Assembly: GCA_017537965.1 (NCBI GenBank)
Contig: JAFYJV010000003.1
Coordinates: 1-44,274 of the forward strand
Direction: 5' to 3'
Origin: Bacteroidales bacterium
Lineage (GTDB): Bacteria > Bacteroidota > Bacteroidia > Bacteroidales > F082
DNA length: 44,274 bases
Shown: positions 1,971 to 24,063 of the stretch, piece by piece
Numbering within the stretch: position 1 is the stretch's first letter
Layout: each line of letters starts with the position of its first letter
Notes under the pieces: generated by a model
Database searches by the model: none
The model's input: the letters and a program-made list of their open reading frames with translations, nothing else
Told to the model about the DNA's origin: nothing
Made by a program: the position numbers and the translations under genes

Positions 1971-4148
1971 ATGAAAAAAACTCCCATGAAACGTTTCTTT
2001 CTTTCACTATTATGTGTCATCGCCTCGGTTATGTACGGACAAAACCCCTGGACGGGGGGCCTCAACGCATGTCAGTTCGGGCGTTTGGACCTTGACGGCG
2101 ATGGTCGAAAGGATCTCCTGGTGTTTGACCGGCATGTGGATCGGCTGTTGTGTTACCTGAATCGGGGTGGCCAGGGCGAGATCCACTATCAACATACTAC
2201 GGCATACGATTCGTTGTTTCCAAGGCTTAGCGGCTGGGCAGTCTTCATGGATTACGATGGTGATGGGAAAGAGGATGTGTTCACCTTTTCCAAAGGCTGG
2301 GCAGGAATCAAGGTGTACCACAACATATCTGCTGCAGGGACTATCGCTTTTGAGTTGGCGGTAGATCCTTATTTGACTTCCTGGCAAGGCGGGGGCGAAG
2401 TGAATATTTTGGCCACGGATGCGGATTATCCGGCGATCTTCGACATGGATGGGGATGGCGACCTGGATATCCTGACCTTTGGGGTGATGGGCACTTTTAT
2501 CGAGAAGCATCAGAATCTTTCTGTGGAGCTATACGGTTGTCGCGACTCGTTGGTGTTTGAGCGTGCCGATCCTTGCTGGGGCAAAGTGGCCGAAAGCGAA
2601 GAGGACAACCTGATGTATCTTGACACCTGCCTTTTCGGTTATGGTATCGTGGTTGACGCCGATGCTGTCCGGCATCGTGGGGCTACTGTCACTGTGCGCG
2701 ACCTGACGGGCGATGGGCTTCTTGACCTGCTGCTTGCCGATGTTGACTATCCGGGATTGACGCTTCTCGTGAACGGAGGCGATTTGGGTCAGGCGATTAT
2801 GGTGAGCCAGCACGATGACTTTCCCTCGCAGCATCCAGTGAATCTCTTCTCCATGCCGGTGCCTTTTTTCACGGATATGAATAACGATGGTGTGGATGAT
2901 CTGCTGGTCTCACCGTTCGATCCCGATCCCATGGCTTCTGAAGGTATCGAGAGTGTTTGGCTGTATCTGAATCATGGAACCAATGAACATCCTGATTTTC
3001 GTTTATTCACAACATCGTTTTTGCAAGATGCGATGATTGACCATGGCACTGGGGCTTTCCCTGCTTTTGCGGACGTGAACGGGGATGGCTTGGTGGATAT
3101 GGTGGTAGGAACGATCGGCAACATTGACAGCACTTGGTATCATTATGGAAGTCTGCAAACACACAGGAGCGCTCAACTTACTTATTATCAAAATATTGGA
3201 TCAAATCAAAACCCCGTCTTTCATTTGGCCGATCGGGATTATTGTCATCTAAAATCCATGGGACTGATGGGCTTGGTGCCTGCTTTCGCCGACTTGGATG
3301 GTGACGGATTGATGGAGATGCTGGTGGGCACGGCTGGAGGCTACATGTTGTTGTTCGACCATGATGGATCTTTGGTGGAGGACGACTTTTTGCATTATGA
3401 AAGGCCTTGGTCGGCGCCGTGTTTCCATGATGTGGATCGGGATGGAGCGATGGATCTGGTTGTGGGAAATGCCACGGGAAGGCTTTCCTATTTCAAGGGG
3501 AATATAGGAGGCAGGAGACAGAAGACAGGAGTCAGAATCCAGTTTGAGCATATCACGGATTTTTGGGGCGAGGTGGATGTGCGTGACTATGGCTCTTCCT
3601 ATTATGGCTATAGCGTTCCGACCTTGTTTCGATTGGACGAGGAGACCTTGTTGGCTGTGGGTTCCGAGTCGGGAAAACTATTCCTTTTTGAAAGAGTTGA
3701 TTCAGATGAAAATGCTGTCTTTGACGAGGTTACGGATCGGTGGAGTGAGTTTTGCGACGACATGCCTGTTCGTTTCGGGAGACGTTCTGCGACGGCGGTG
3801 GCCGACTTGAACGGAGATGGCTTGCCAGAGGTGGTCGTCGGGAATTTTGCCGGTGGACTACAGTTGTTCAATGCCGAGATTTCCATCGATTACGGTGTGA
3901 CTGAGATTGTGGCACAGGAAGGAGTGGAGATCTATCCCAATCCCACATTGTCTCAGTTGCATGTCATCACAAAACAGGACGAAATCCATAGAGTTGTAGT
4001 GGAGGATTTGTTCGGGCGCTCGTTGCTAGTGATGCCCTTACATGGGAAAGAAGCCGTGGTGGAGGTGGGGAACTTGAGTCCTGGAGTTTATGTCCTTGGC
4101 CTTTGGCTGGAGCGGGGCTTGGTGAACCGAATCTTTCTCAAGCGGTAG
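1971..4148 (+). CDS. Secreted FG-GAP/VCBS repeat protein with T9SS sorting domain
   Basis: This 725-residue protein starts with a signal peptide (MKKTPMKRFFLSLLCVIASVMYG) and carries about nine DxDGDGxxD-type calcium-loop repeats (for example DLDGDGRKD, DYDGDGKED, DMDGDGDLD, DVNGDGLVD, DLNGDGLPE), the hallmark of FG-GAP/VCBS beta-propellers. The last 75 or so residues (VEIYPNPT ... GVYVLGLW ... RIFLKR) match the T9SS type A sorting domain, so it is probably exported and anchored or released at the cell surface. I start it at 1971. An ATG at 1986 is equally plausible because the -7 box ends at 1968 and transcription may begin at or beyond the first ATG; a longer frame to 1902 would lack a sensible signal peptide. 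A 35-bp heptamer repeat lies inside the gene at 3504-3538. The 3' end overlaps the convergent protease gene by 61 bp. Confidence 0.88.
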   Translation: MKKTPMKRFFLSLLCVIASVMYGQNPWTGGLNACQFGRLDLDGDGRKDLLVFDRHVDRLLCYLNRGGQGEIHYQHTTAYDSLFPRLSGWAVFMDYDGDGKEDVFTFSKGWAGIKVYHNISAAGTIAFELAVDPYLTSWQGGGEVNILATDADYPAIFDMDGDGDLDILTFGVMGTFIEKHQNLSVELYGCRDSLVFERADPCWGKVAESEEDNLMYLDTCLFGYGIVVDADAVRHRGATVTVRDLTGDGLLDLLLADVDYPGLTLLVNGGDLGQAIMVSQHDDFPSQHPVNLFSMPVPFFTDMNNDGVDDLLVSPFDPDPMASEGIESVWLYLNHGTNEHPDFRLFTTSFLQDAMIDHGTGAFPAFADVNGDGLVDMVVGTIGNIDSTWYHYGSLQTHRSAQLTYYQNIGSNQNPVFHLADRDYCHLKSMGLMGLVPAFADLDGDGLMEMLVGTAGGYMLLFDHDGSLVEDDFLHYERPWSAPCFHDVDRDGAMDLVVGNATGRLSYFKGNIGGRRQKTGVRIQFEHITDFWGEVDVRDYGSSYYGYSVPTLFRLDEETLLAVGSESGKLFLFERVDSDENAVFDEVTDRWSEFCDDMPVRFGRRSATAVADLNGDGLPEVVVGNFAGGLQLFNAEISIDYGVTEIVAQEGVEIYPNPTLSQLHVITKQDEIHRVVVEDLFGRSLLVMPLHGKEAVVEVGNLSPGVYVLGLWLERGLVNRIFLKR
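3504..3538 (+). repeat. Heptamer block A (five units), inside a coding region
   Basis: Five consecutive 7-mers: ATAGGAG, GCAGGAG, ACAGAAG, ACAGGAG, TCAGAAT. They match the TNAGAAG family found in five gene spacers of this window. Here the block is translated as roughly GGRRQKTGVR between two propeller strands of the FG-GAP protein, where relatives would be expected to have a short turn. Confidence 0.75.
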
Positions 4149-4534
4149 TTGAGGGTGGCTTTGAGTCGATAGAGGAGGTCGCCTCCAACGATGCCGTCGA
4201 TGGCGGGCAATCTCAGTTTCTGATAAGTTTCGTGGATGTTCTCAAGGTCGAGGGCGACGGCTTCGTAGTCCTTGATTTCAATATCGCCGAATGTCAGTGA
4301 GTTGATGGTGAAAGTGGAGCTTTCGAGGTCGTTGCCGCCCACGCCGGAGGTGATGCCTTCTTTTTTCTCGAAAGTCGGGTTCTCGATGAATTTAGCGATG
4401 ATGGTGGGGTCAAATACCGATCGTGAAGCGCCAGTGTCGATCAAGAAATTGGCTTCCATGCCATTGATCTTTCCCTTGATCATGACGTGGAAGCCTTCTC
4501 CTTCGATATCCAATAAACGGATAGGTATTTGCAT
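4088..4534 (-). CDS. Retropepsin-like aspartic protease
   Basis: The 148-residue protein has a single aspartic protease active-site motif LIDTGAS at 31-37 and a downstream DGIVGGDLL segment like the hydrophobic-Gly flap-side motif of retropepsins. One motif per chain means it should act as a homodimer, as bacterial and retroviral pepsin-like proteases do. No signal peptide is visible, so it is probably cytoplasmic; the substrate is unknown. ATG 4532-4534 shares its A with the TGA of the upstream LOG gene (TGATG), which points to translational coupling; a TTG one codon earlier is less likely. Its last 61 bases overlap the convergent FG-GAP protein gene. Confidence 0.82.
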   Translation of the reverse strand: MQIPIRLLDIEGEGFHVMIKGKINGMEANFLIDTGASRSVFDPTIIAKFIENPTFEKKEGITSGVGGNDLESSTFTINSLTFGDIEIKDYEAVALDLENIHETYQKLRLPAIDGIVGGDLLYRLKATLNYRLRKIRFTKPRSSQRPRT

Positions 4535-5256
4535 CAAAGATTGAGGTTGGTTTTGACGTTAAACCGATCATAGAAGTCCTTGATGACTTGGACGGCTTCT
4601 TCAGCGGTGTCAACTACATGGAAGATGTCGAAGTCTTCTTCATTGATCATCTTTTCCTTTAACATGGTGTTGTGGAACCAGTCAATAAGCCCTTGCCAAT
4701 AGTCTTTTCCTACGAGTACTACCGGGAAGTCGGAGAGTTTCTCGGTCTGGATGAGGGTGAGAGCTTCCGACATCTCGTCGAGGGTACCGAAACCGCCGGG
4801 CATTGCGATGTAACCTTGGGCATAACGCATGAAGATGTTCTTGCGTACGAAGAAGTAGTTGAAGCGGATGTTCTTGTCGAAATCCACGTAGTCGTTGCAT
4901 TTGCCTTCGAATGGTAGCACGATCTCAAGTCCCACGCTTGTTCCGCCAGCCTCTTTGGCGCCTTTGTTGCCAGCTTCCATGATACCTGGTCCGCCGCCGG
5001 TGATGACGCCGAAGCCGAGTTCGGTGATGCCACGGGCGATATCTTCGGTCAACTTGTAGTATTTGTCATCAGGCTTGGTGCGGGCGGAGCCGAAGATGGC
5101 GACGCAAGGGCCGATTTTTGACATTTTTTCCATGCCATCGACGAATTCGGCCATGATCTTGAAGACCGACCAGGAGTCGTGTGTCTTGACGTCGTTCCAT
5201 GACTTGGGCTGGAAGCTTTGGCGGATGATTTGTTCTTCTCTTTCGGTAATGGGCAT
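4534..5256 (-). CDS. LOG-family (TIGR00730-type) nucleotide nucleosidase
   Basis: The 240-residue protein shows the Rossmann-type nucleotide site GGGPGIMEA (87-95) and the signature PGGFGTLDE (153-161) of the LOG/'lysine decarboxylase-like' family. Characterised members are phosphoribohydrolases that split nucleoside 5'-monophosphates into base and ribose 5-phosphate; the older decarboxylase label is a misannotation. The N-terminal ~45 residues before CVAIFGSAR form an extension seen in many Bacteroidota members. The substrate cannot be told from sequence. It is the first gene of a two-gene unit with the retropepsin. Upstream there is a heptamer block rather than an obvious -7 box. Confidence 0.88.
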   Translation of the reverse strand: MPITEREEQIIRQSFQPKSWNDVKTHDSWSVFKIMAEFVDGMEKMSKIGPCVAIFGSARTKPDDKYYKLTEDIARGITELGFGVITGGGPGIMEAGNKGAKEAGGTSVGLEIVLPFEGKCNDYVDFDKNIRFNYFFVRKNIFMRYAQGYIAMPGGFGTLDEMSEALTLIQTEKLSDFPVVLVGKDYWQGLIDWFHNTMLKEKMINEEDFDIFHVVDTAEEAVQVIKDFYDRFNVKTNLNL

Positions 5257-5261
5257 TTTTA

Positions 5262-5296
5262 TTAGAATTTAGAAGACAGAAGTCAGAAGTAAGAAT
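5262..5296 (+). repeat. Heptamer block B (five units)
   Basis: TTAGAAT, TTAGAAG, ACAGAAG, TCAGAAG, TAAGAAT. The block starts 5 bases upstream of the LOG gene start (5256, minus strand), antisense to it, and ends 45 bases before tRNA-Gly. Confidence 0.85.
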
Positions 5297-5302
5297 TATT
5301 TC

Positions 5303-5331
5303 TTGGGATTCGAATATTTTTTATATTTTTG
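5303..5331 (+). promoter_or_regulatory. Promoter of tRNA-Gly
   Basis: TTGG at 5303-5306 and TATTTTTG at 5324-5331, 17 bases apart, fit the Bacteroidota promoter with slightly short spacing. The tRNA begins 11 bases after the -7 box. Confidence 0.6.
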
Positions 5332-5341
5332 CAATCGAATT

Positions 5342-5414
5342 GCGAATGTAGCTCAGTTGGTAGAGCATCAGCTTCCCAAGCTGAGGGTCGCGGGTTCGAG
5401 CCCCGTTATTCGCT
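5342..5414 (+). tRNA. tRNA-Gly (CCC anticodon)
   Basis: A full cloverleaf of 73 nt folds by eye: acceptor GCGAATG/TATTCGC, D stem GCTC/GAGC, anticodon stem TCAGC/GCTGA with loop TTCCCAA (anticodon CCC, reads GGG), T stem GCGGG/CCCGT with TTCGAGC. The discriminator is T and CCA is not encoded. A strong terminator follows 6 bases later. Confidence 0.95.
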
Positions 5415-5420
5415 CAAAGA

Positions 5421-5451
5421 TGGGGTTGCGCGGTGCGCAACCCCATTTTTT
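5421..5451 (+). terminator. Intrinsic terminator after tRNA-Gly
   Basis: An 11-bp perfect stem (TGGGGTTGCGC / GCGCAACCCCA) with loop GGT is followed by TTTTTT. It ends just before the stop codon of the convergent SPFH gene (5453). It could also form in the reverse direction but has no matching U-tract there. Confidence 0.88.
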
Positions 5452-5452
5452 A

Positions 5453-6718: not shown

Positions 6719-6721
6719 GGT

Positions 6722-6769
6722 TTTGTTGATTTGTTGATTTGTTTATTTGTTGAATTGTTGATTTGTTTT
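6722..6769 (+). repeat. Octamer block 1 (six units)
   Basis: Six 8-mers in exact register: TTTGTTGA, TTTGTTGA, TTTGTTTA, TTTGTTGA, ATTGTTGA, TTTGTTTT. They fill the spacer between the TIM44-like gene and the SPFH gene (both minus strand; mRNA sense TCAACAAA). Confidence 0.85.
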
Positions 6770-7683: not shown

Positions 7684-7703
7684 TAGGTTGAATTTTTGAT
7701 GTG

Positions 7704-7711
7704 CAAATATA
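7704..7711 (-). promoter_or_regulatory. -7 box of the TIM44/SPFH operon
   Basis: TATATTTG on the minus strand, 20 bases upstream of the TIM44-like start codon. It fits TAnnTTTG. I did not find a clear TTG at the -33 position. Confidence 0.55.
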
Positions 7712-7791
7712 GCATTTCTTTATCAAAAAAGGAAGTGCGATCATATTTTTTTAAAATTCGAATAAAAATGCAATTGAAAGAAAAAAATGTC

Positions 7792-7799: not shown

Positions 7800-7809
7800 C
7801 AACCTCAAA

Positions 7810-7884
7810 GGGAGTTTAGCTCAGTTGGTTCAGAGCACCTGCCTTACAAGCAGGGGGTCGCTGGTTCGAATCCAACAATTCCCA
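7810..7884 (+). tRNA. tRNA-Val (TAC anticodon)
   Basis: A 75-nt cloverleaf: acceptor GGGAGTT/AATTCCC, D stem GCTC/GAGC, anticodon stem CCTGC/GCAGG with loop CTTACAA (anticodon TAC, reads GUA and other Val codons by wobble), T arm GCTGG TTCGAAT CCAAC with one C-A mismatch. The discriminator is A; CCA is not encoded. Confidence 0.95.
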
Positions 7885-7894
7885 CGAAAACAAG

Positions 7895-8052: not shown

Positions 8053-8070
8053 CAGAAAATATTTACAACT

Positions 8071-11365: not shown

Positions 11366-12979
11366 TTATTTGATGTTCGGCTCTTCGAGTCCGAGGTGCT
11401 TCTTGGCGTCAACACGCTTCAAGATGATGCCGATGATCAATGCGGCGATGCCGAGGCAGGCCAGCATGACCAATGGCCAAGTGTAGTTGAGTGCCACAGG
11501 ATCGTCAACACCCGGGTTGGTGTTTTCGAGCACCTTGCCGATGAGCAACGGGAACAGCCACAGGCCGATGTTCTGGATCCAGAAGATCAAGGCATAGGCC
11601 GAGCCGATGATCTTTTCGTCCACCAGCTTCGGGACGCTCGGCCACAAGGCGGCAGGCACCAGTGAGAAGGAGGCACCCAGCACCAGGATGGTCACGTATG
11701 CCACGACGACACCGCCGACAGCGTTACCCTTGAACATGGGCAGGATGAAGGCGAAGGTGAGGTGGCAGAGGATGAGGAGCAACGAGCCGATCATCAGCAT
11801 GGATGCGGCTTTGCCCTTGTTGTCCACATAGCTTCCGAGGATGGGAGTGATGGCCACAGCCAGCAGCGGGAACACGGCGAAGATGGTCTCGGCAGTGCCA
11901 CGCATGTAACCCATATAGCAGTAAACCACCAGAGCGACGACGGCGATAGCCATCAAGGTGAACTTCATGCCTTTCTTCTTCGAGAAGTTGCTGGCAAAGG
12001 AGCAGACAGCCACCACGAGCATGATGATGTATTGGACGATGGTGACGGTGTCGCCAGCCCAGAACGAACCCGCAGCGGGTTCAGTCAAGGTGAGGTTGCA
12101 CTGCAACATGTTGACAGCATACTTCTGGAATGGGAAGATGGCGCTGTAATAGAGCACGCAGAGCAAGGCGACCAGCCAGAAGCCGAGGCTCGACAAGATC
12201 TTGCCGATGTCGCTTACCTTGAACGGGTCGTCTTTCTCTTCGGCTTCGCCAGTCTGCTTGTCCAACTTCTTGTCCATGAAGAAATAGACGATGAACATAA
12301 TGAGGGCGATGCAGAGCAGCACAATACCGAAAGCAACGGAACGGCTCACGTTGATGCTTCCACCCAGACGTGCGAAGTAGGGGGAGAAGATCATACAGGT
12401 GGCCACACCCAGACGGGCCAAAGCCATCTCAGAACCCATGGCCAAGGCGGTCTCGCGACCCTTGAACCACTTCACGATACCGCGGCTCACCGTAATACCA
12501 GCCATCTCCGTGCCGCAGCCGAAGATCATGAAGCCGACAGCAGCCATCTTGGCCGAAGCAGGCATGCCTCTATAGAATGGCGAGACGCCAAGCTCTTCGA
12601 AGCCCGGGATGTAATTGAGGTTGTTGGTGAACCAGGTCTCAAGGCCGCTGCCATAGAACGATTCGCTGATCGCATAGTATTTGATCAGACCACCGATCAG
12701 CATGACGACGCCTGAAAGCACGGCAGTGAAACGCACACCCATCTTGTCGAGGATGATGCCTGCGAAGATGAGGAAGAACACGAAGACGTTGAGGAAGGTC
12801 TCAGCGCCCTGCATGGTGCCGAAGGCGAGGCTGTCCCATCCGCGTTCAGTCTGCATCAAGTCCTTGATGGGGGACAGGATGTCCATGAAGATGTAGGAAC
12901 AAAACATGGCCAAAGCCAACAGCAACAAGGCAATCCACCTATAGGTGGGGTTGTCTCTCATGGTGATTTTTTCTGTCAT
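11366..12979 (-). CDS. MFS transporter
   Basis: The 537-residue protein has about 12 hydrophobic helices and the major facilitator layout: an early FAGIILDKMGVRF loop after helix 2 (the G-x-x-D-x-x-G-x-R motif), VKWFKGRETALAMG after helix 4, and a charged central loop (MDKKLDKQTGEAEEKDDPFK). It therefore uses ion or substrate gradients in the inner membrane. The extended extracytoplasmic segment after helix 3 (SFYGSGLETW ... YIPGFEELG) and the overall look suggest the MFSD1-like branch of Bacteroidota transporters; the substrate is unknown. It is the last gene of rsmG - M16 peptidase - MFS. Start 12979 abuts octamer block 2; M7 (12961) is an alternative. Confidence 0.85.
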   Translation of the reverse strand: MTEKITMRDNPTYRWIALLLLALAMFCSYIFMDILSPIKDLMQTERGWDSLAFGTMQGAETFLNVFVFFLIFAGIILDKMGVRFTAVLSGVVMLIGGLIKYYAISESFYGSGLETWFTNNLNYIPGFEELGVSPFYRGMPASAKMAAVGFMIFGCGTEMAGITVSRGIVKWFKGRETALAMGSEMALARLGVATCMIFSPYFARLGGSINVSRSVAFGIVLLCIALIMFIVYFFMDKKLDKQTGEAEEKDDPFKVSDIGKILSSLGFWLVALLCVLYYSAIFPFQKYAVNMLQCNLTLTEPAAGSFWAGDTVTIVQYIIMLVVAVCSFASNFSKKKGMKFTLMAIAVVALVVYCYMGYMRGTAETIFAVFPLLAVAITPILGSYVDNKGKAASMLMIGSLLLILCHLTFAFILPMFKGNAVGGVVVAYVTILVLGASFSLVPAALWPSVPKLVDEKIIGSAYALIFWIQNIGLWLFPLLIGKVLENTNPGVDDPVALNYTWPLVMLACLGIAALIIGIILKRVDAKKHLGLEEPNIK

Positions 12980-13017
12980 TGTTGAGTTGTTTATTTGTTT
13001 ATTCGTTGATTTGTTTT
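12978..13017 (+). repeat. Octamer block 2 (five units)
   Basis: Five 8-mers in register: ATTGTTGA, GTTGTTTA, TTTGTTTA, TTCGTTGA, TTTGTTTT. They fill the whole spacer between the M16 peptidase stop and the MFS start codon, as block 1 does between TIM44-like and SPFH genes. Confidence 0.82.
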
Positions 13018-13019
13018 TT

Positions 13020-15830
13020 TTATTCGGGGAGCTGGACGACTTCTTTCTTGTAGCCGTTCAGGATGACCTTGGCCATGTCGGCGAGGTCTTGTCCCGTAAC
13101 GCTGTTGACCAACTCGTCGTAGCCCTTCATCAGGTTGATGCCGTCACGTAATTGGGTTTGGATGCAGTTCATCCAGTAACGGTTGCTCTCCATGTCCTCG
13201 GCATGTTTCTTGACCTTGTACTCCTTCACCTTCATGAGGTCTTGCTCGCGCGGACCTTCGTTGGCGATGCGTTCGAGTTCGGCCTTGGCGATGCCCATCA
13301 GCTTGGCATACATCTCTTTGTTGGTCTCGAAACCGATCAGCATCAGGAAGGTGCCCTTGGGATATTGTTGGATCGTGCCGTTGACGCCGACGCCGTAGGT
13401 GCCGCCTTCGTCCTCACGGATTTTCTCGGTATAGACGATGTCGAGAACGTCTTTCAGGAGTTCCATCTTCATGAGGTTTTCGGGAGTGTAGTCCATGTCG
13501 CCATTGTAGAACATGTAACAAGTAGCCTTGGGGTTCTCCATGGCTTTCTCGTAATGGCAGATATAGTCATTCTTCGGATAGTTGCGGCCGTTGTCTTTCC
13601 AGGTCTCGTCGTTCTTGGTGGCTTTCATGCCGCCGAGGTATTGGGTGACCATGGGTTCGAAGGTCTCGGGGTTGATGTTGCCCACGAAGGTAAACACAAA
13701 GTTGTTAGGATCGGCAAAACGCTCTGCTGCCATCTGCAAACCCTTGACATAGTCGATCTTGTCGTAATCTTCGGCTTTCATGCGCTTGCTGAGAGGATGG
13801 TTGCCGTAGAGCACCTTGACCAAACTGTCGCTGAAAGCGGTCATGGGATCTGACTCCACGTTGGCAAGGACAGCCTTGTTACGGGTGATATACGACTGGA
13901 ATGCTTCGTCGTCTCTGCGCAGATTGTTGAAGTACAGATAGGTAAGTTGCAGCATGGTTTCCAAGTCCTTGACGGAGCAGTTACCGCTGACGCCTTCAGT
14001 GTAGTTGTTGATATTGGCACTCACTCTGACGCGTTTTCCAGCAAGGATCTTCGGGAGGTCGATGGCGCTGAAGTTGCCGACGCCGCCAACACCCATCAGT
14101 GAGTTGAGTTCCTGAAGGGTATAGGGATCGTTTTGATCGAGGACGGAGAGACCGCCAAAGCTGTATGCGCTCATCAAGATCTCGTCGTCTTTGAAGTCGG
14201 TGGTCTTGTAGATAACCTTCACACCGTTCTTCATGGTGAGCATGGTGGCGTCGAATTCTTCAAGGAGTTCGGTTTTGGAGATCTTGCCAGGTTGGGGCAG
14301 TTCGGCAAGCAGTGGCTCGTCGGAGACGGTCTCCTGGTAGGCTTCCACCTTCATGTCGTTGGCTTTGTTGAAGCAATCGAGCAGATAAGCTTTGTCGGGC
14401 ATGGTCTCGCCTTCCTTTTGGGGACCGGTGAGCACGATGACGATATTGTTGTCGGTGACCAGTTCCTTGGCGTAGGCATTGATGGCTTCCAACGGCAAGT
14501 TGGGAAGGATCTGCTGGAGCAGCGGGTATTCAGTCTCGATGCCCATGAGAGGCTCGTTGGTGAGGAAATGGGCGAGCATCGGGTTGAAATAACGCGAGGT
14601 CTCTTGTTTGTTGCGTTCTTCAAACTGAGTCTCATACTGACGGAGCAGGTCGGCCTTGGCGCGTTCATATTCCGAAGCGGTGAAGCCGAATTCTTTCATG
14701 CGGTTGCTCTCGTTGACAAGGGCTGTCATGGCTTCGTCGATGCCGTCTTTATCCTTGGCAGAGGCAGCAATGCTCCAAGCGTCCTTAGTGTCGGAGATCA
14801 TAAAGGTGCCATAATAGCCGTAACCGTAGATGAAAGGTGGGTTGGGCTTTTGGGTGAGCTCTTGCAGACGGGTGTTGAACATTTGCGATACCAGGCGCTC
14901 AACAATATTTCCGACCCAATAGCTGATGTCGTTTCTCATCTCGACGGGAGTGATGTCATGCTTATAGCAGATGGAAATGTCGTAGCTGGTCTCTTCGACG
15001 TCGGTGGCTACAGACACGATGGGTTCTTCGTTGTCAGCCACGGGGAAGTGGACGCGCTCGGCGGGATTCACTGGGGCTGGGATGTCGGCGAACATCTCTT
15101 TCAGACGGTTCTCAATCTGATCCACATCGATGTCACCGACGACGATGATGCCTTGGAGGTCGGGGCGGTACCATTTGTGGTAGTAGTCGCGAAGGAACTG
15201 ATGATCGAAATGGGCGACGACTTCCTCGGTTCCGATGATGGGCATCGGGACGCCGTAGGGGCTGTTGGGATAGATCTCGGGCAGAATCTTGCCGTAAATA
15301 CGCATCTGGGCGTCAAGACCTTGACGCATTTCTTCCAGGATGACGCCGCGTTCGTTCTCAATCTCGTCGTCTTCGAGGGAGATGAAGCTCGACCAGTCGT
15401 GCAGCACGAGCAGGCAGGAGTCAACCAGTCCGGGGTTGGTAGTGGGGACGTTGTTGAGCATATATACGGTCTGCTCAAAGCTTGTCCATGCGTTGACGTT
15501 GGTACCGAACTTCACGCCGTTGCGTTCCATGTAGTCGAGCATGGCTTTCTTGGGGAAGTGTTCCAAGCCGTTGAAGGCCATGTGCTCCAAGAAGTGAGCG
15601 AGACCTCTTTGATTCTCTTCTTCAAGGATGGAACCAACCTTCTGTGCAATGTAGAAGTTGGCTCTCTGAGCGGGTTTTTCGTTGTGACGGATCAGATAGG
15701 TGAGTCCGTTGTCAAGCTTACCCATCCTGACTTTGGGATCCAATGGTGCAGGCATGGCTTGCTGTCCGAATACGGAAATGCCAAATGCCATTACGAAAGC
15801 AATTACCAGTGTTTCTTTCAGTTTTCTCAT
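13020..15830 (-). CDS. M16-family zinc metallopeptidase (insulinase/pitrilysin type)
   Basis: The 936-residue protein has a signal peptide (MRKLKETLVIAFVMAFGISVFG) and the inverted zinc motif HFLEH at 79-83 with a downstream glutamate in ENERGVILEE (E160, 77 residues after the second His, the usual spacing), so it should be catalytically active. The length fits the two-half M16 enzymes with an active N-terminal and an inactive C-terminal half. It is probably periplasmic and degrades peptides; its partner gene downstream is a transporter, which could take up products, though that is inference. It starts 27 bases after the rsmG stop, so the two are probably co-transcribed. Confidence 0.93.
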   Translation of the reverse strand: MRKLKETLVIAFVMAFGISVFGQQAMPAPLDPKVRMGKLDNGLTYLIRHNEKPAQRANFYIAQKVGSILEEENQRGLAHFLEHMAFNGLEHFPKKAMLDYMERNGVKFGTNVNAWTSFEQTVYMLNNVPTTNPGLVDSCLLVLHDWSSFISLEDDEIENERGVILEEMRQGLDAQMRIYGKILPEIYPNSPYGVPMPIIGTEEVVAHFDHQFLRDYYHKWYRPDLQGIIVVGDIDVDQIENRLKEMFADIPAPVNPAERVHFPVADNEEPIVSVATDVEETSYDISICYKHDITPVEMRNDISYWVGNIVERLVSQMFNTRLQELTQKPNPPFIYGYGYYGTFMISDTKDAWSIAASAKDKDGIDEAMTALVNESNRMKEFGFTASEYERAKADLLRQYETQFEERNKQETSRYFNPMLAHFLTNEPLMGIETEYPLLQQILPNLPLEAINAYAKELVTDNNIVIVLTGPQKEGETMPDKAYLLDCFNKANDMKVEAYQETVSDEPLLAELPQPGKISKTELLEEFDATMLTMKNGVKVIYKTTDFKDDEILMSAYSFGGLSVLDQNDPYTLQELNSLMGVGGVGNFSAIDLPKILAGKRVRVSANINNYTEGVSGNCSVKDLETMLQLTYLYFNNLRRDDEAFQSYITRNKAVLANVESDPMTAFSDSLVKVLYGNHPLSKRMKAEDYDKIDYVKGLQMAAERFADPNNFVFTFVGNINPETFEPMVTQYLGGMKATKNDETWKDNGRNYPKNDYICHYEKAMENPKATCYMFYNGDMDYTPENLMKMELLKDVLDIVYTEKIREDEGGTYGVGVNGTIQQYPKGTFLMLIGFETNKEMYAKLMGIAKAELERIANEGPREQDLMKVKEYKVKKHAEDMESNRYWMNCIQTQLRDGINLMKGYDELVNSVTGQDLADMAKVILNGYKKEVVQLPE

Positions 15831-15857
15831 TTTTTCTAGTTTAAAGTTTTTAATCAG

Positions 15858-16484
15858 TTAGTATAATTGAACTACAAATTTTTCTTCAAAATATTCTTCC
15901 TTGAAATACTTCGATACAGGAGTCTTCGTATAGTGCCAATACTTGGACAAGGCCTTGAACTCCTCTTTGAGATCGCCGCCTTTGAGGTAGATGATGCCTC
16001 CGGCCTCGATGTCGCCTCGGATCCTTAACTTGTTGCCGGCGAGGTTGGCGATCTCGGGCAGGGTCATCACTGCTCTTCCTGTGATGACATCGAACTTGTC
16101 CTTCACTTCTTCGGCGCGTTTGTGTTCAGCCACCACGTTTTTCAATCCAATGGCGTCCTTGACAGCATTTACCACCGTGATCTTTTTGCCCGTGCCGTCG
16201 ATAAGGTAGAACGCTGTGTCGGGAAATAGGATGGCCAGTGGGATGCCAGGGAAACCGCCTCCCGTACCGAGGTCCATCACCTTCATGCCGGGCAGAAGCT
16301 CGAAATACTTCGCTATGGCCAAGGAATGCAACACATGGTGCTCATAAAAATGGTCCATGTCCTTCCTGGAAATGACGTTGATCTTGCTATTCCAATCCAA
16401 ATAGATGTCTTTCAGTTGGTTAAACTGATCCTTTTGGATGTCGGAAAGGTTATTGAAATAGCAAAAGATGCGTGTTGTGTCCAT
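15858..16484 (-). CDS. rsmG: 16S rRNA (guanine-527-N7)-methyltransferase RsmG
   Basis: RsmG methylates N7 of G527 in 16S rRNA using S-adenosylmethionine; loss gives low-level streptomycin resistance in other bacteria. The 208-residue protein shows the family's SAM-binding motif VMDLGTGGGFPGIPLAILFP in the first half, preceded by WNSKINVISRKD and the HVLHSLAIAKYF helix typical of RsmG. Length matches the family. It is the first gene of a leftward unit with the M16 peptidase and MFS genes. A TATTTTTG box (16504-16511, minus strand) lies 20 bases upstream. Confidence 0.95.
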   Translation of the reverse strand: MDTTRIFCYFNNLSDIQKDQFNQLKDIYLDWNSKINVISRKDMDHFYEHHVLHSLAIAKYFELLPGMKVMDLGTGGGFPGIPLAILFPDTAFYLIDGTGKKITVVNAVKDAIGLKNVVAEHKRAEEVKDKFDVITGRAVMTLPEIANLAGNKLRIRGDIEAGGIIYLKGGDLKEEFKALSKYWHYTKTPVSKYFKEEYFEEKFVVQLY

Positions 16485-16503
16485 AGTTGATCCTTAAAAC
16501 CAA

Positions 16504-16511
16504 CAAAAATA
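16504..16511 (-). promoter_or_regulatory. -7 box of rsmG operon
   Basis: TATTTTTG on the minus strand, followed by the rsmG ATG about 20 bases later. The same short spacer also holds a TATTTTTA-like box on the plus strand (16554-16561) for the glucosaminidase gene. Confidence 0.6.
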
Positions 16512-16580
16512 CGGATTTCTTGAATATGATGGCCTGTTTGTGAAAAAGTTTTGTATTTTTACCTTCTCAATTCTTATGAC

Positions 16581-17570
16581 ATGGGTAGGCATTTGCTTTT
16601 TTTGTTTTTGCTGTTGGCGCCGCTTGGATTGGTGGCACAAAAGATCACGGTGGAGCAGTATATCGATACATACAAGGATATCGCCATGCGCGAGATGAAG
16701 GATCACAAGATCCCGGCATCCATCACTTTGGCGCAGGGCATCTTGGAATCGGGAGCAGGCAACAGTGCCTTGGCCCGCGACGCGAAAAACCATTTCGGGA
16801 TCAAATGCCACAAGGGTTGGACGGGCAAGACCTATATCATGGACGACGATGAAAAGAATGAGTGTTTCCGCAAGTATAAGAACGCTGAGGACTCGTTTGT
16901 GGACCATTCACTGTTTTTGACGGGCCGCAGTCGCTATGCCGGGCTGTTCGAGCTGGATATCATGGACTACGAAGGCTGGGCAAAGGGCTTGAAGGCTGCT
17001 GGCTATGCCACCAACCCGAAATATGCACAACTGCTCATTGACAGGATTCGGCTGTATGAGCTGTATAAGTATGACCAGATCGCCATGGGGCTTTTGACGG
17101 AAGAAGAAGCCAAGGCGGAGATGCTTGCCGATGGCACCGAGGAACTCATGGAGGAAATCGACCTGCTGGAGCTGGCCTATTCACCAACCGACCGTTCGGT
17201 GTTTGAACTGGTGGACATGACCGCCGAGAAGCGTTTCATCTATGAGAACAACAAGGTGCGTTTTGTTTTCGCTAAGGAAGGGGAGACGCCCGAAGGCATG
17301 GCGCGAGAGTTCGGCATCAAGCTGAAGAAGTTCTGCCGCTACAACTGCATCAAGCATCCTGAGGCGGTGACCTTCCATAGTGGCGATGTGGTGTATCTGG
17401 AGTCGCTCAGAAAACGCAACTGGAAGGCGAAAGCACATATCGTGACGGAAGGCGAGACGGTGCGCGACGTGGCGCTGAGGTACGCGGTCAGGCCAGAGAA
17501 GATCTTGAAGAAGAACAAGTTGCAAGAAGGAACCCGTCTGAAAAAAGGGCAGAAGTTGAAGCTGCGTTAA
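16581..17570 (+). CDS. Glucosaminidase-domain (GH73) protein with C-terminal LysM repeats
   Basis: The 329-residue protein has a signal peptide (MGRHLLFLFLLLAPLGLVAQ), a GH73 endo-beta-N-acetylglucosaminidase domain (about 22-165) with the catalytic glutamate E56 in LAQGILESGAGNS, and a C-terminal region (about 225-329) with two LysM-like modules (FVFAKEGETPEGMAREFGI and HIVTEGETVRDVALRYAV) that bind peptidoglycan. It should cut glycan strands during wall remodelling. Start 16581 is chosen because it opens the signal peptide; a TTG at 16551 lies in the promoter. The gene ends 8 bases from the convergent uvrA stop, with no clear terminator between. Confidence 0.93.
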   Translation: MGRHLLFLFLLLAPLGLVAQKITVEQYIDTYKDIAMREMKDHKIPASITLAQGILESGAGNSALARDAKNHFGIKCHKGWTGKTYIMDDDEKNECFRKYKNAEDSFVDHSLFLTGRSRYAGLFELDIMDYEGWAKGLKAAGYATNPKYAQLLIDRIRLYELYKYDQIAMGLLTEEEAKAEMLADGTEELMEEIDLLELAYSPTDRSVFELVDMTAEKRFIYENNKVRFVFAKEGETPEGMAREFGIKLKKFCRYNCIKHPEAVTFHSGDVVYLESLRKRNWKAKAHIVTEGETVRDVALRYAVRPEKILKKNKLQEGTRLKKGQKLKLR

Positions 17571-17578
17571 ATTGGCCG

Positions 17579-20425
<2,847 letters not shown>

Positions 20426-20427
20426 AA

Positions 20428-20462
20428 CTTCTTACTTCTGTCTTCTAACTTCTGTCTTCTAT
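20428..20462 (-). repeat. Heptamer block C (five units)
   Basis: On the plus strand CTTCTTA, CTTCTGT, CTTCTAA, CTTCTGT, CTTCTAT; on the mRNA strand this is the TNAGAAG family. It lies between the lytic transglycosylase stop (20467) and the uvrA ATG (20425), with only 2 and 4 bases to spare. Confidence 0.85.
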
Positions 20463-20466
20463 CCAC

Positions 20467-21411
20467 TTATTTGGGCAACTTTATTACATAGCTGTTCCCT
20501 TCGGAGATGGTCAGCGTCTTTCCTCTGAGCCATGGGTTGTAGTATTTGAGCATCTTGAAGTTGGTGCCGTTGTTGATGGCGAAGTCAACGAGGTCGGGGA
20601 TGGATTCGGTGACAGTGATCGTCTTGTATTCCAAGGGTTGGTACCAGCCCTCGTCGCTGATGTGGAATCCGTAGCGTCCCGGGTCTTCGGTGATGATCTT
20701 GAGGACCAGGATACGGTAAACGTACCGTTCGGTCTCGTTGGGCAACAGCATGTCGAAATAGGAGTTGACCCGCTGTTCTTCGATGGTCTTGCTGATCCTG
20801 CCGTTGCCGCAGTTGAAGGCGGCAGCCGAAAGGGTCCAGCTTCCGAACTTTCGGTAAGACTCCTTTAGGTATTTGCATGCGGCAACGGTCTCCAGTTCTT
20901 GGTTGTAACGCATGTCAACCTCCTTGTTGATCTCCAGGTTGTATTCCTTGCCGGTGCCTTCGAGGAATTGCCAGAACCCGACCGCTTTGGAGGGCGAGAC
21001 CGCATTGGTCAGGTCGCTCTCGATCATCGCCAGATATTTGAAGTCGTCGGGCAAGCCGTTTTTTCGCATGATAGGTTCGAGGACGGGAAACCAACGGGTT
21101 GTCCTTTTCAAAAGAAGGATGGTGCTGGCATGGCGGTAGGTGTTCACCAAAAGCTCGCGCTCCAGGCTTTCACGGACATAGAACCGATCCATGGGCACTG
21201 CCTCGCCGCAAAAGCACAGGGAGTCGGGCAGGGAAATGTCGTGGATGTTCTGGTCGAGGTGGTTGAATGCCAGCATGTCGGGGTTGAGCGATTCGTAGTA
21301 ACGGTTGTCTTCTTCAAGGGTGCTTTGGGCAATGCTGAGGGTGATGGCAGCGGTCACACCTATTAATATAATGGCGAATCCACATGCCAAAAGGAGGTTT
21401 CTTGTTCTCAT
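20467..21411 (-). CDS. Membrane-anchored lytic transglycosylase (SLT family)
   Basis: The 314-residue protein has one N-terminal hydrophobic segment (about 7-28, signal anchor) and an SLT domain: catalytic E131 in LAMIESDLTN, then SPSKAVGFWQFLEGTGKEYNL and LSAAAFNCGNGRI. It resembles MltD-type enzymes that cleave peptidoglycan to 1,6-anhydro products. The C-terminal ~60 residues (LVDFAINNGTNFKMLKYYNPWLRG) resemble a single degenerate LysM-like binding region. I start at 21411 (MRTRNLLL), giving a clean signal anchor; an ATG nine codons earlier overlaps the AT-rich spacer. It sits between rfbC and uvrA in the same leftward unit. Confidence 0.88.
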   Translation of the reverse strand: MRTRNLLLACGFAIILIGVTAAITLSIAQSTLEEDNRYYESLNPDMLAFNHLDQNIHDISLPDSLCFCGEAVPMDRFYVRESLERELLVNTYRHASTILLLKRTTRWFPVLEPIMRKNGLPDDFKYLAMIESDLTNAVSPSKAVGFWQFLEGTGKEYNLEINKEVDMRYNQELETVAACKYLKESYRKFGSWTLSAAAFNCGNGRISKTIEEQRVNSYFDMLLPNETERYVYRILVLKIITEDPGRYGFHISDEGWYQPLEYKTITVTESIPDLVDFAINNGTNFKMLKYYNPWLRGKTLTISEGNSYVIKLPK

Positions 21412-21442
21412 GTTCTTATTTAAAGATTTAAAATTCAAATAT

Positions 21443-21991
21443 TTAAGGTTTAAAAGGAGTTATAAAATCTTTAAACAACGGAGCTGCCTTGTCTTTCTCT
21501 GACAGGATGGGGTTGTCGATGTTCCAGTGGATGTTGAGGTCGGGGTCGTCCCAGCGGATGCTGCCTTCAGATGCCTTGTTGTAAACGTTGGTGCATTTGT
21601 AGGTGAACACGGAGTGATCTTCGAGGCACACGAAGCCATGGGCGAAGCCTTCGGGTATCCAGTACATGAACTTGTTCCCTTCGGTCAGCGTCACCGACTC
21701 CCACTGTCCGTAAGTCGGGGAGCCTTCCCTCAGGTCAACGGCCACGTCCATAACGGCGCCTTTCACCACACGCACCAGCTTGCCTTGAGCGAAGGGTGGC
21801 TTTTGGAAATGGAGTCCGCGCAGCACGCCCTTCATGGATTGCGACTCGTTGTCCTGCACGAAGTTCATGTCGAGTCCATGCTCGGTGAAGCGTTGTTTGT
21901 TGTAGCTCTCGAAGAAATACCCTCTCTCATCAAGGAACACATTCGGCTTGATGATCAACAAGTCTTTTATTTTAGTTTCAATAATCTCCAT
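21443..21991 (-). CDS. rfbC: dTDP-4-dehydrorhamnose 3,5-epimerase
   Basis: RfbC/RmlC epimerises dTDP-4-keto-6-deoxyglucose on the way to dTDP-L-rhamnose, used in surface polysaccharides. The 182-residue cupin has the catalytic His in GVLRGLHFQ (H61), FLDERGYFFESYN near the start, and the substrate-binding stretch IPEGFAHGFVCLEDHSVFTYKC. Length and motifs are normal. The other rhamnose genes (rfbA, rfbB, rfbD) are not in this window, so the gene stands apart from its pathway. Its ATG overlaps the first heptamer of block D. Confidence 0.96.
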   Translation of the reverse strand: MEIIETKIKDLLIIKPNVFLDERGYFFESYNKQRFTEHGLDMNFVQDNESQSMKGVLRGLHFQKPPFAQGKLVRVVKGAVMDVAVDLREGSPTYGQWESVTLTEGNKFMYWIPEGFAHGFVCLEDHSVFTYKCTNVYNKASEGSIRWDDPDLNIHWNIDNPILSEKDKAAPLFKDFITPFKP

Positions 21992-22024
21992 TCTAACTTC
22001 TCTCTTCTGTCTTCTGACTTCTAA
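21990..22024 (-). repeat. Heptamer block D (five units)
   Basis: On the plus strand ATTCTAA, CTTCTCT, CTTCTGT, CTTCTGA, CTTCTAA. It fits exactly between the lpdA stop (22025) and the rfbC start codon (21989-21991), overlapping the start by two bases. Confidence 0.87.
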
Positions 22025-23416
22025 TTATAGATGCACGCACTCGTTATATGCTGCTGCCGCCGCTTCCATGATGCCTTCCGACATGGTGGGGTGGGGGAAC
22101 ACGGCATGGATGATGTCCTCGCCTTTGGCGCCGAGCTCACGGCAGAGCACTGCTGAAGCGACCATCTCGGTGACGTTGTCGCCGACCATGTGGCAGCCCA
22201 GCCAGTCGCCTGTCTTGGCATCGAAGACGACCTTGATGAAGCCGTCTTTGTTGCCTGCTGCGGTGGCTTTTCCTGAGGCGGTAAAGGGGAACTTGCCAAT
22301 CTTGACTTCATAGCCTGCGGCTACGGCCTTCGCTTCGCTCATGCCGACGGAGGCGATCTCCGGCGTGGTATAGGTGCAGCCAGGAATGTTGGCGTAGTTC
22401 AACGGCTTGGGGTCGAGGCCACAGAGCTTCTCCACGCAGATGGTAGCTTCGTGGTCGGCCTTGTGGGCCAGTGCTGGACCGTGAACGATGTCGCCGATGG
22501 CATAGACTCCAGGCACGTTGGTGCGGTAGAAGTCATCGACGATGACCTTGCCCCGTTCGGTGGCGATGCCCAAGGTCTCTAGGCCAAGGTCGTCGATGTT
22601 GGTCTGCACGCCGACAGCGGAGAGCACAATGTCGGCCTCCACGGTCTTGTCGCCCTTCTTGGTGCTGATGGTGCAAATACATTTCTCGCCTGTGGTGTCC
22701 ACATGGGTCACCGAGGCCTCAGTCATCACCGTCATCTTGAGTTTCTTGAAGGAACGCTCCACCTGCTTGGAGACTTCTTCGTCTTCGTTCGGGACCACGT
22801 TGGGCAGGAATTCCACCAAGGTGACCTTCACACCCATGCTGGTGAAGAAGAAGGCGAACTCCGAGCCGATGGCACCGGAGCCGACCACCACCATGCTCTC
22901 AGGGAGTTTGTCGAGGACGAGGGCTTGGCGATAGCCGATGATGCGTTTGCCGTCGATGGGCAAGGCGGGCAACTCGCGCACGCGGGAGCCGGTGGCGAGG
23001 ATGATATGGTCGGCTTCATGCAGGGTGACATTGCCTTCAGCGTCGGTTACCGACACTTGCTTGTCGGCGGTGAGACGGCCATAACCGGCGATGACCTCTA
23101 CATTGTTCTTTTTGAGGAGGAACTGCACCCCTTTACTCATGGTCTCGGCCACGCCACGGCTGCGGGCGACCACGGCTTCCATGTCGGGAGCGACTTCGCC
23201 TTCTACCTTGATGCCGTAGTTTTCGGCATGTTTGATATAGTTATAGACCTGGGCGCTCTTCAACAATGCTTTGGTAGGTATGCAACCCCAGTTGAGGCAG
23301 ATGCCGCCCAACTCGGCCTTCTCGACCACGGCGGTTTTCTTTCCAAGTTGAGATGCTCTGATGGCAGCCACATAGCCTCCCGGGCCGCTGCCGATAACGA
23401 TGACGTCGTATTTCAT
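22025..23416 (-). CDS. lpdA: Dihydrolipoyl dehydrogenase
   Basis: The E3 flavoprotein reoxidises dihydrolipoamide in 2-oxoacid dehydrogenase or glycine cleavage complexes. The 463-residue protein shows the FAD motif GSGPGGYVAA (9-18), the redox pair C40/C45 in GGICLNWGCIPTK, the NAD site VVGSGAIGSEFAFF, and the C-terminal His-Glu pair in HPTMSE (H442, E447). All key residues are present. No E1 or E2 genes are next to it, so which complex it serves is open. A 38-residue membrane protein gene with a promoter lies just upstream. Confidence 0.97.
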   Translation of the reverse strand: MKYDVIVIGSGPGGYVAAIRASQLGKKTAVVEKAELGGICLNWGCIPTKALLKSAQVYNYIKHAENYGIKVEGEVAPDMEAVVARSRGVAETMSKGVQFLLKKNNVEVIAGYGRLTADKQVSVTDAEGNVTLHEADHIILATGSRVRELPALPIDGKRIIGYRQALVLDKLPESMVVVGSGAIGSEFAFFFTSMGVKVTLVEFLPNVVPNEDEEVSKQVERSFKKLKMTVMTEASVTHVDTTGEKCICTISTKKGDKTVEADIVLSAVGVQTNIDDLGLETLGIATERGKVIVDDFYRTNVPGVYAIGDIVHGPALAHKADHEATICVEKLCGLDPKPLNYANIPGCTYTTPEIASVGMSEAKAVAAGYEVKIGKFPFTASGKATAAGNKDGFIKVVFDAKTGDWLGCHMVGDNVTEMVASAVLCRELGAKGEDIIHAVFPHPTMSEGIMEAAAAAYNECVHL

Positions 23417-23420
23417 TTTT

Positions 23421-23455
23421 TAAGAATTTAGAATTCAGAAGTTAGAAGTCAGGAG
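23421..23455 (+). repeat. Heptamer block E (five units)
   Basis: TAAGAAT, TTAGAAT, TCAGAAG, TTAGAAG, TCAGGAG (a sixth, more degenerate unit TCGGGAT follows). It lies 5 bases upstream of the lpdA start and supplies the stop codon of the 38-residue gene (TGA at 23449-23451 on the minus strand). Relative to the operon it is in the opposite orientation to blocks C and D. Confidence 0.82.
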
Positions 23456-23565
23456 TCGGGATGCTTTTTCTTGTCGATTTTATGGATGATTTTGGCCAAT
23501 ATCGCCCAAAGGACGAAAAAAGCGACCACTCCTATGAACCAGACGAAAAGCAGTTTGACGACCAT
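23449..23565 (-). CDS. Small single-helix membrane protein (38 residues)
   Basis: An ATG at 23563-23565 (minus) opens a 38-codon frame beginning MVVKLLFVWFIGVVAFFVLW. About 24 residues form one hydrophobic helix, followed by a basic tail (KIIHKIDKKKHPDS). The positive-inside rule suggests a cytoplasmic C-terminus. A TATTTTTG box followed by CACC lies 18 bases before the start. lpdA starts 33 bases after its stop, so it is probably the first gene of the lpdA operon. I do not recognise a family. The terminal codons fall in heptamer block E, so the true end in relatives may differ. Confidence 0.6.
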   Translation of the reverse strand: MVVKLLFVWFIGVVAFFVLWAILAKIIHKIDKKKHPDS

Positions 23566-23582
23566 AATTAATAATTAAGGTG

Positions 23583-23590
23583 CAAAAATA
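23583..23590 (-). promoter_or_regulatory. -7 box of the lpdA operon
   Basis: TATTTTTGCACC on the minus strand matches the extended -7 sequence also seen at the rRNA promoter (TACTTTTGCACC). No TTG is found 19 bases upstream. Confidence 0.6.
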
Positions 23591-23620
23591 CGAAAAAAGT
23601 ATCATTTTTTTGATGGTTCT

Positions 23621-23651
23621 TTTGTAATCTCAGCAAAATTTCTTATGTTTG
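23621..23651 (+). promoter_or_regulatory. Promoter of the 109-residue protein gene
   Basis: TTTG (23621-23624), 19 bases, TATGTTTG (23644-23651): an ideal Bacteroidota promoter. It is divergent from the lpdA operon promoter. Confidence 0.8.
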
Positions 23652-23696
23652 TACCCAATAAACTGAATCACTGAACAACTAATCAACCGAATTGCC

Positions 23697-24026
23697 ATGA
23701 ATATTGATTCCAATCCCGTTCACATCCTTTACGACAACAACAAGCTTCGCGATGTCATCATGATGATCATAAACGGTCGTTCCGATAATATGGGCATCAC
23801 CTTTGTCAATCTTTGTTACCAAATCCTTCAGCTTGCCGAGCAAGAGCAGATGGTCGAGAATTCCGGACAAGTCACTCACACAAGTAACGAGATCGCTCCT
23901 GAAGATCAGGTTAGGGTGAGTAGGGTGTTGTGGGAGCTCATTTGGGACAAGAAAGTTTTCCTTCTTTTTGGCAGGAGTCCGCTGCTAGGCTTGAGCAACG
24001 GCGAGGACCGTTTCGTGAAATACTAG
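23697..24026 (+). CDS. Hypothetical protein, 109 residues
   Basis: I do not recognise this protein. It begins MNIDSNPVHILYDNNKLRDVIMM, has a helical middle (NLCYQILQLAEQEQ), a polar stretch (ENSGQVTHTSNEIAPEDQ) and a second helical segment (VSRVLWELIWDKKVFLLF). No signal peptide or clear membrane helix is seen. The ideal promoter 45 bases upstream argues that it is a real gene. It is monocistronic, and heptamer block F begins 3 bases after its TAG stop. The final 20 residues (SPLLGLSNGEDRFVKY) look less protein-like and could reflect drift or a frameshift. Confidence 0.55.
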   Translation: MNIDSNPVHILYDNNKLRDVIMMIINGRSDNMGITFVNLCYQILQLAEQEQMVENSGQVTHTSNEIAPEDQVRVSRVLWELIWDKKVFLLFGRSPLLGLSNGEDRFVKY

Positions 24027-24028
24027 TG

Positions 24029-24063
24029 TTAGAAGATAGAAGAAAGAAGAAAGAAGTAAGAAG
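24029..24063 (+). repeat. Heptamer block F (five units)
   Basis: TTAGAAG, ATAGAAG, AAAGAAG, AAAGAAG, TAAGAAG, in exact 7-base register, directly after the stop of the 109-residue protein gene. Confidence 0.87.

Follow-up and report, generated by a model that had tools for sequence, protein, structure and literature searches.

Intervening sequences and dispersed heptamer repeats

The closest described counterpart of the element considered here is the intervening sequence (IVS) of the Coxiella burnetii 23S rRNA gene, which is 428 nt long, has an S23p open reading frame (ORF) and stem-forming inverted ends, and is described as carrying tandem GACAGAT heptamers just 5' of the S23p start codon, in numbers that vary by strain (PMC4990558). 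Our subject is a window of 44,274 nucleotides (the whole stretch of DNA analysed; contig JAFYJV010000003.1, here C34) from a 41-contig, 2.32-Mb draft genome of a rumen Bacteroidales bacterium (GCA_017537965.1, here G000). The window contains six 35-bp blocks, each of five degenerate heptamers. Each block is probably a solo copy of one end, or arm, of a small S23/IVS-type intergenic element that resides outside rRNA. A full element of this type is present on another contig of the same genome, C18.

Heptamer arrays dispersed in the genome, much like the window blocks, are familiar from the STRR sequences of heterocystous cyanobacteria. The TAACTGA repeats of Beggiatoaceae, cyanobacteria and some Bacteroidetes are likewise tandem, intergenic, often near start codons and lineage-specific, but have another motif and two to six units in the type genome (as many as 43 elsewhere); the accessible text of that account uses neither "S23" nor "four helix bundle" (PMC4679880). 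The GGGNATC repeats of Xanthomonas and Nostoc, of which there are 183-186 arrays per Xanthomonas genome, resemble the blocks in being degenerate heptamers enriched in non-coding DNA, in having a preferred unit number and in that the same junctions vary in length and sequence among relatives; they differ in the preference for four units and in being read as G-quadruplexes, and the authors, who also mention Calothrix heptamers, report in the accessible text that they as a rule saw no link to insertion sequences or transposable elements (PMC4692102). The motif of the window blocks, an AGAAG core by inspection, differs from both. As tandem 7-mers in many copies, mostly intergenic, the blocks nonetheless belong to the loose kind of dispersed heptamer repeats, so that the statement of an earlier note on this DNA that no described family has this form was only partly right, heptamer arrays having been published for Beggiatoaceae, cyanobacteria and Xanthomonas.

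Genes of the S23 family have been reported outside rRNA: 18 are described in cas loci (PMC3936711), and in Flavobacterium columnare a four-helix-bundle gene lies between guanylate kinase and nadD, the accessible text making no mention of repeats (PMC5524665). The tying of the S23/IVS element to the dispersed heptamer repeats seems to be new; no description of a link between S23 genes and heptamer arrays was found in the searches made of open-licence papers, and an earlier account elsewhere is possible.

The full element on contig C18

The element spans 455 bp and consists of five AGAAGNN heptamers, an ORF of 121 aa and five inverted heptamers, set between the hbd stop and the acyl-CoA dehydrogenase gene start at 5 bp from each:

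C18 2504-3340, minus strand: hbd
C18 2464-2498: array of five units
C18 2079-2444: four-helix-bundle ORF of 121 aa, between the arrays
C18 2044-2078: inverted array of five units
C18 896-2038: acyl-CoA dehydrogenase gene

The protein belongs to the 23S_rRNA_IVP/four-helix-bundle family. It matches TIGR02436, "23S rRNA intervening-sequence protein" (E 1.2e-34), and, at the same locus, PF05635 (E 4.1e-36); its nearest solved relatives are 2gsc (E 2.5e-18) and 2rld (E 6.7e-6), with five chains each. Avd, the accessory protein of diversity-generating retroelements, is of a related fold family and has been compared with PF05635 (PMC10053308); its model NF033474 is matched at E 1.3e-5, but with 25 bits against a cut-off of 80. 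Pairwise dN/dS values of 0.01-0.08 among ORF orthologues in three genomes indicate, by sequence comparison, that the ORF is under purifying selection. The RNA of the element is predicted (ViennaRNA) to fold at -141.2 kcal/mol (z -4.98) with the arms paired, which would place the ORF in the loop of a long stem.

In length, in the stem around an S23-family ORF, in the heptamers adjacent to the start and in folding energy (-143 by Mfold for the IVS, PMC4990558, and -141 by ViennaRNA here) the C18 element is like the Coxiella IVS. Although it resembles an IVS and shares its gene and its ends, which are terminal inverted sequences predicted to pair around the ORF, it lies between protein genes and outside the 23S rRNA gene, and so is not a 23S IVS. 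It differs further in that both arms are heptamer arrays, in that solo and ORF-less copies are dispersed, and in the purifying selection on its ORF, the Coxiella ORF having been called expendable (PMC4990558). As regards a possible likeness to miniature inverted-repeat transposable elements (MITEs), inverted pairs exist, and no target-site duplication was noticed when filled and empty junctions were inspected by eye. One full AGAAG element was found in the DNA examined of each of two genomes, G000 and G060.

The six blocks of the window

Direct inspection and a profile scan both bear out the six blocks listed in the earlier note, each comprising five 7-mers in register:

3504..3538, plus strand: block A, solo array of 5 units within an FG-GAP ORF
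5262..5296, plus strand: block B, solo array of 5 units, 5 bp 5' of the ATG of a LOG-family gene and antisense to that gene
20428..20462, minus strand: block C, solo array of 5 units that accounts for most of the 41-bp slt-uvrA spacer, sense
21990..22024, minus strand: block D, solo array of 5 units, filling the lpd-rfbC spacer, sense, its last unit overlapping the rfbC ATG
23421..23455, plus strand: block E, solo array of 5 units, 4 bp 5' of the lpd ATG and antisense to lpd
24029..24063, plus strand: block F, solo array of 5 units, 2 bp past the stop of a 109-aa ORF

As had been claimed, five of the six adjoin a gene start or stop, C and D are sense, and B and E are antisense. The sixth, block A, is read through by the long FG-GAP ORF though 35 bp is not a codon multiple. 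The further claim of exactly five units is true of these six blocks but not genome-wide, where five is the mode and the range in G000 is 4-8. In G060 the orthologue of block D retains the AGAAG cores while half of the linker letters are different, and the site of block C is a 4-nt stop/start overlap in 14 of the 29 genomes classed, the window counted in.

Inverted arrays around S23 genes

PF05635 was found in 31 of 40 genomes. From more than 100 matches, supplemented by two further ones, 66 loci were picked, these being the stronger ones with room on both sides; a usable ORF was present in 63 of the 66 (L123, L143 and L164 were dropped). When the upstream 150 bp was compared with the reverse-complemented downstream 150 bp, complementary flanks (score of at least 30) were found at 47 of the 63 PF05635-family genes and at 5 of 602 other ORFs. 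The latter figure derives from 606 unselected ORFs, nine of which reached the threshold, four of the nine being S23 family by inspection; at least two S23-family genes below threshold, L031 and L033, remain among the 602. A gene's own downstream flank ranks first in 38 of 63 cases and in the top three in 50 (median rank 1, 32 expected), and after merging of sites by flank similarity 36 of 51 retain complementary flanks. In direct orientation the flank medians are 17 against 16, though 13 of the 63 loci exceed the 99th percentile. Neighbouring genes, where they could be called, lie on the strand of the S23 gene upstream at 51 of 59 loci and downstream at 45 of 61.

In the orthologous spacers of 37 related loci there are arrays of other 7- and 8-mers, frequently paired in inverted orientation. 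Six of these spacers (L022, L043, L027, L031, L033, L038) contain a four-helix-bundle ORF of 120 aa. Periods of the spacer arrays peak sharply at 7 and 8: a strict count over the 37 loci yields only 7, 8, 14, 15 and 16, plus two arrays at 11, and a looser count adds some at 6, 9, 10 and 12, of which those at 6, 9 and 12 are taken to be coding. ORF-less hairpins at L189, L196, L199, L048 and L023 have loops that look alike by eye (TCGCGATGCGC-like) despite different arm motifs, and these loops resemble the sequence ahead of the downstream arm in the full elements L027 and L033. Such hairpins are possibly deletion derivatives of full elements.

Filled and empty junctions

The same gene junction is filled in some relatives and empty in others, as comparison of orthologous spacers, proposed in the earlier note, made plain. 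Between hbd and the acyl-CoA dehydrogenase gene, 28 of 30 loci were classed, as 12 ORF-less inverted pairs carrying several motifs, 4 full elements, 6 empty sites and 6 others. Of 29 slt-uvrA loci, 18 are empty (14 of these being the 4-nt overlap), 5 have solo arrays of two motifs, 5 are other and 1 is another hairpin. The lpd-rfbC junction (37 loci) has 13 inverted pairs, 8 other hairpins, 6 others, 5 solo arrays, 3 empty sites and 2 full elements, and the rfbC-slt junction (38 loci) has 18 empty sites, 10 others and two each of solo arrays, other hairpins, inverted pairs and full elements, the remaining two having an S23 gene but no arms at threshold. A single site can thus be empty, an ORF-less inverted pair or array-gene-array, and the motif varies at one site. 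Between G000 and G060, 24 of 50 G060 arrays have both flanks in the G000 DNA compared (9 have one flank, 17 none); 18 of these 24 sites still bear an array in G000, two as S23 arms, and 6 have no array or another motif.

The array family across the genome

The blocks belong to a family spread over the whole genome: a four-unit pattern gives 91 overlapping matches in G000 (41 + 50) against 2 (1 + 1) for the reversed pattern. The AGAAG profile scan has a reversed-sequence control above zero, with 39 control against 52 real hits at score 14 and 6 against 35 at score 28; the array counts at score 26 (n = 36 and n = 93 in G000, n = 50 in G060) come without a reversed control of their own. The set of 36 takes in C17 and the window, which were not chosen for arrays, and C18, chosen for its S23 gene; in the set of 93 the arrays outside these three were chosen by four perfect units, and in G060 by three.

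Unit number peaks at five in all three sets: 4:9, 5:21, 6:5 and 7:1 for the 36 arrays; 4:15, 5:56, 6:15, 7:3 and 8:4 for the 93; and five units in 35 of the 50 from G060. Among the 36, seven lie inside called ORFs; of the 29 intergenic arrays, 28 are no more than 10 bp away from a start or stop codon. Close inverted AGAAG pairs (gap under 200 bp) in the DNA examined number five in G000 and three in G060, all eight of them convergent. Linkers vary with unit position in five-unit arrays (chi-square p 1.1e-9 in G000, n = 56, and 1.3e-8 in G060, n = 35), a final T being found mainly in unit 5. Part of this pattern may be due to overlap of units 1 and 5 with stop and start codons. Unit-specific linkers are as expected of copies of one 35-bp founder.

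Plain microsatellites, that is, seven-base slippage arrays arising alone in spacers without any element, would be in keeping with the difference in unit number at 10 of 16 orthologous solo pairs (G000 and G060), from which it follows that slippage also acts, with the longest arrays of relatives (G004 has arrays of 10 and 11 units, and G010 reaches at least 12 as counted from overlapping matches) and with the reported over-representation of heptamers among long simple repeats (PMC4692102, PMC4679880). Linkers specific to unit position, empty orthologous junctions, and inverted arms that surround one gene family and whose motif follows its protein make this reading very improbable. The earlier note's choice of a dispersed element over slippage therefore stands in its first part, by virtue of those linkers, the empty junctions and the identity of the array with an element arm, but slippage has its share.

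In the 16 orthologous solo pairs, core identity is 0.954 (372/390), flanks are about 81% identical and linkers 0.583 (91/156; 0.508 expected if unrelated), a contrast biased toward the core because both members of a pair were found by the AGAAG profile, and one on which we lean lightly. Such retention, with ascertainment in its favour, is what a post-transcriptional regulon would draw on, in which a protein that reads repeats, be it the S23 ring or some other, would bind the arrays in mRNA and selection would keep them near junctions. The excess of sense over antisense arrays between co-directional genes (18:5 in C17, C18 and the window, p 0.011; 21:7 in G060) points the same way, and a function of this kind was put forward by MacGregor for the TAACTGA arrays (PMC4679880). 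Against it, some copies are antisense, convergent or inside ORFs, 6 of 24 G060 arrays are absent or of different motif in G000, and nine array-rich genomes lack the cognate gene (see below); we regard the regulon as the most serious of the rival accounts, and still rather unlikely.

Any match to the pattern occurs in 24 of 60 genomes of the genus and ten or more in 13, while the five-unit pattern is found in none of 24 genomes from other families of the order. G027 matches the reversed control pattern only (5 and 7), and perhaps has another heptamer family. A long TCGGAAG/TTAGAAG-type heptamer array is also present at L072 2676-2794, in a flavobacterial record outside Bacteroidales.

Motif, protein lineage and distribution

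The more alike two S23 proteins are, the more alike their arms tend to be (Mantel p 0.002; 51 loci, with 17 flank-linked pairs dropped by a same-site filter using tblastx or blastn). One flank-linked group, L114 and L136-L139, represents neighbouring sites in a sugar-gene cluster, so that the top identity bins of this test are weaker than the comparison over the full set of 79 loci. In that comparison AGAAG-type flanks are found at 7 of 9 loci whose protein is at least 50% identical to that of G000, a group that includes the query L093, its same-site relative L108 and L165, aligned over 38 residues only, and at 4 of the 70 loci below that identity. With the query left out the count is 6 of 8 (Fisher p 2e-5); the two loci of the group without such flanks are L220 and L165.

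S23 homologues occur in 32 plasmid records, mostly cyanobacterial, and 15 of the 16 plasmid loci examined are cyanobacterial; none was found in phage records at E 1e-3. The six closest plasmid relatives are 58-61% identical to the G000 protein. Cyanobacterial S23 loci do carry TCAGRAG arrays: TCAGGAG/TCAGAAG arrays lie upstream at L218, L219, L221, L222 and L230, and AGGAGAT at L220. More distant plasmid loci have other motifs, direct arrays or none. As some loci are near-copies, the independent cyanobacterial cases number about three. S23-type genes on these plasmids were also seen inside CRISPR operons, at cas10-cmr3 (L220, with flank arrays of inverted score 29) and at cas6-cas4 (L225, with direct arrays, and L226, with inverted score 50) and, in a Nostoc edaphicum plasmid, between two ribonucleotide reductase genes with GGGAGTA-type arms (L224, inverted score 63).

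Taking as array-rich a genome with ten or more pattern matches and as cognate a gene whose protein is at least 70% identical, the cognate gene is present in 4 of the 60 genomes of the genus, all four array-rich. On a 29-genome tree of the genus, which takes in seven of the thirteen array-rich genomes and leaves six off, two separate origins are needed to account for the arrays, and the cognate gene occurs in a genome of each group. The expansion in G001 is a separate branch; of the 28 linker positions compared among its distinct five-unit strings, 27 read TT or AT, as do the linkers at most units of its own S23 arms.

Several observations weigh against deriving the blocks from the element. Sixteen of the 63 S23 genes lack arms at threshold. 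Only 8 of 16 plasmid loci reach an inverted score of 26, and among the six closest only L220 and L230 do so; at L218, L219, L221 and L222 the arrays are mainly upstream, with one or two units downstream. Most copies in G000 are solos, and given few close inverted pairs and one full element per genome the step from arm to solo is a matter of inference. Lastly, nine array-rich genomes are without the cognate gene, two of them (G034 and G020) scored as 100% complete, so that arrays either outlive the gene or spread by other means.

Arrays are found more widely than the gene (13 of the 60 genomes are array-rich, 4 have the cognate gene). This would also suit a hitch-hiking S23 gene, inserted as a passenger into arrays of older and independent origin, as would those cyanobacterial loci where the array is one-sided or in direct orientation. 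Matching inverted flanks at 47 of 63 loci and a motif that tracks the protein lineage render this unlikely.

The peak at five also persists without the cognate gene (10 of 18 arrays in G034, 4 of 9 in G004). This bears on the idea, pursued and then demoted, that five units were selected because the S23 protein is a pentamer with one subunit per heptamer. Five chains in each of 2gsc and 2rld, the description of Xcc0516 as a homopentamer ring (PMC4990558) and the peak itself are consistent with it. Besides persisting in those genomes, the peak is accounted for by a five-unit founder, and a preference for four units has been reported for the G-rich heptamers of Xanthomonas and Nostoc (PMC4692102), though Xcc0516 is from Xanthomonas; 8-mer arrays (n = 9 and 21) are similar in length in bases but too few to decide. 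We consider the pentamer idea unlikely, a little more so than hitch-hiking.

Other features of the window

Beyond the six blocks, the window contains arrays that did not figure in the earlier note, made of 8-mers or of mixed 7- and 8-mers with other motifs and likewise at gene spacers:

6722..6768, no strand: 8-mer array of the TTTGTTGA type, filling a gene spacer
12979..13020, no strand: 8-mer array of the TTGTTTAT type, filling a gene spacer
21418..21454, no strand: degenerate ATTTAAAG array at the rfbC-slt junction

Among the 79 S23 loci, the best match of the first two is to both flanks of L141, in the relative G019, and the best matches of the third are to both flanks of L113 and of L094, the latter being the other strong S23 gene of G000, on contig C10. 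Each array family of the window matches both flanks of some S23 locus, a comparison made with no null.

Rfam at gathering score returned, over the whole window, only the following, the first tRNA lying about 45 bp from block B:

305-705: tmRNA
5342-5414: tRNA
7810-7884: tRNA

Promoter and terminator consensus scans of 15800-25500 were at about chance (8 against 7.0, and 7 against 10.2, in shuffles). The named relatives of slt, a neighbour gene in the window, are Bacteroidales metagenome-assembled genomes, many ruminant-derived, including "bacterium F082".

A possible pathway and its implications

If the blocks descend from the element, the process might run as follows. Within a co-transcript the two arms would base-pair, leaving the ORF in the loop of a long stem as happens in an IVS, and the stem would be a substrate for RNase III, excision being suggested by the likeness to IVSs. 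Each S23 lineage tends to go with its own short core at a 7- or 8-nt pitch, and in this clade a 35-bp, five-unit arm would have seeded the genomes at gene junctions, probably because it does least harm there. Spread of the arm may have proceeded by reverse transcription of the excised stem, by DNA-level copying or by gene conversion; comparison of copies suggests that slippage later changed the unit number and linkers drifted while the core stayed. The most likely use of the purine-rich core array, to the cell or to the element, would be recognition by a ring-shaped S23 protein, by analogy with TRAP, which reads NAG repeats and offers a model for such recognition.

A broader proposition, which we put forward tentatively and with less than even confidence, is that S23/IVP genes flanked by heptamer arms make up a widespread, hitherto unrecognised kind of minimal mobile element. 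Every lineage of the ring protein would read a short core of its own, repeated at a pitch of 7-8 nt, and solo arms seeded in trans would be the source of the heptamer repeats of Bacteroidota and cyanobacteria, perhaps also of Beggiatoaceae and Xanthomonas, and the 23S rRNA IVS would be a special case that landed in rRNA. Since S23 genes sit among junction arrays, including those at cas10-cmr3 and cas6-cas4, their occurrence in cas loci may result from insertion rather than function. The finding joins three open questions, namely the heptamer arrays of gene spacers, the origin of the 23S rRNA IVS and what the common "four helix bundle protein" does, and it suggests an origin for the puzzling seven-base repeats of several bacterial groups.

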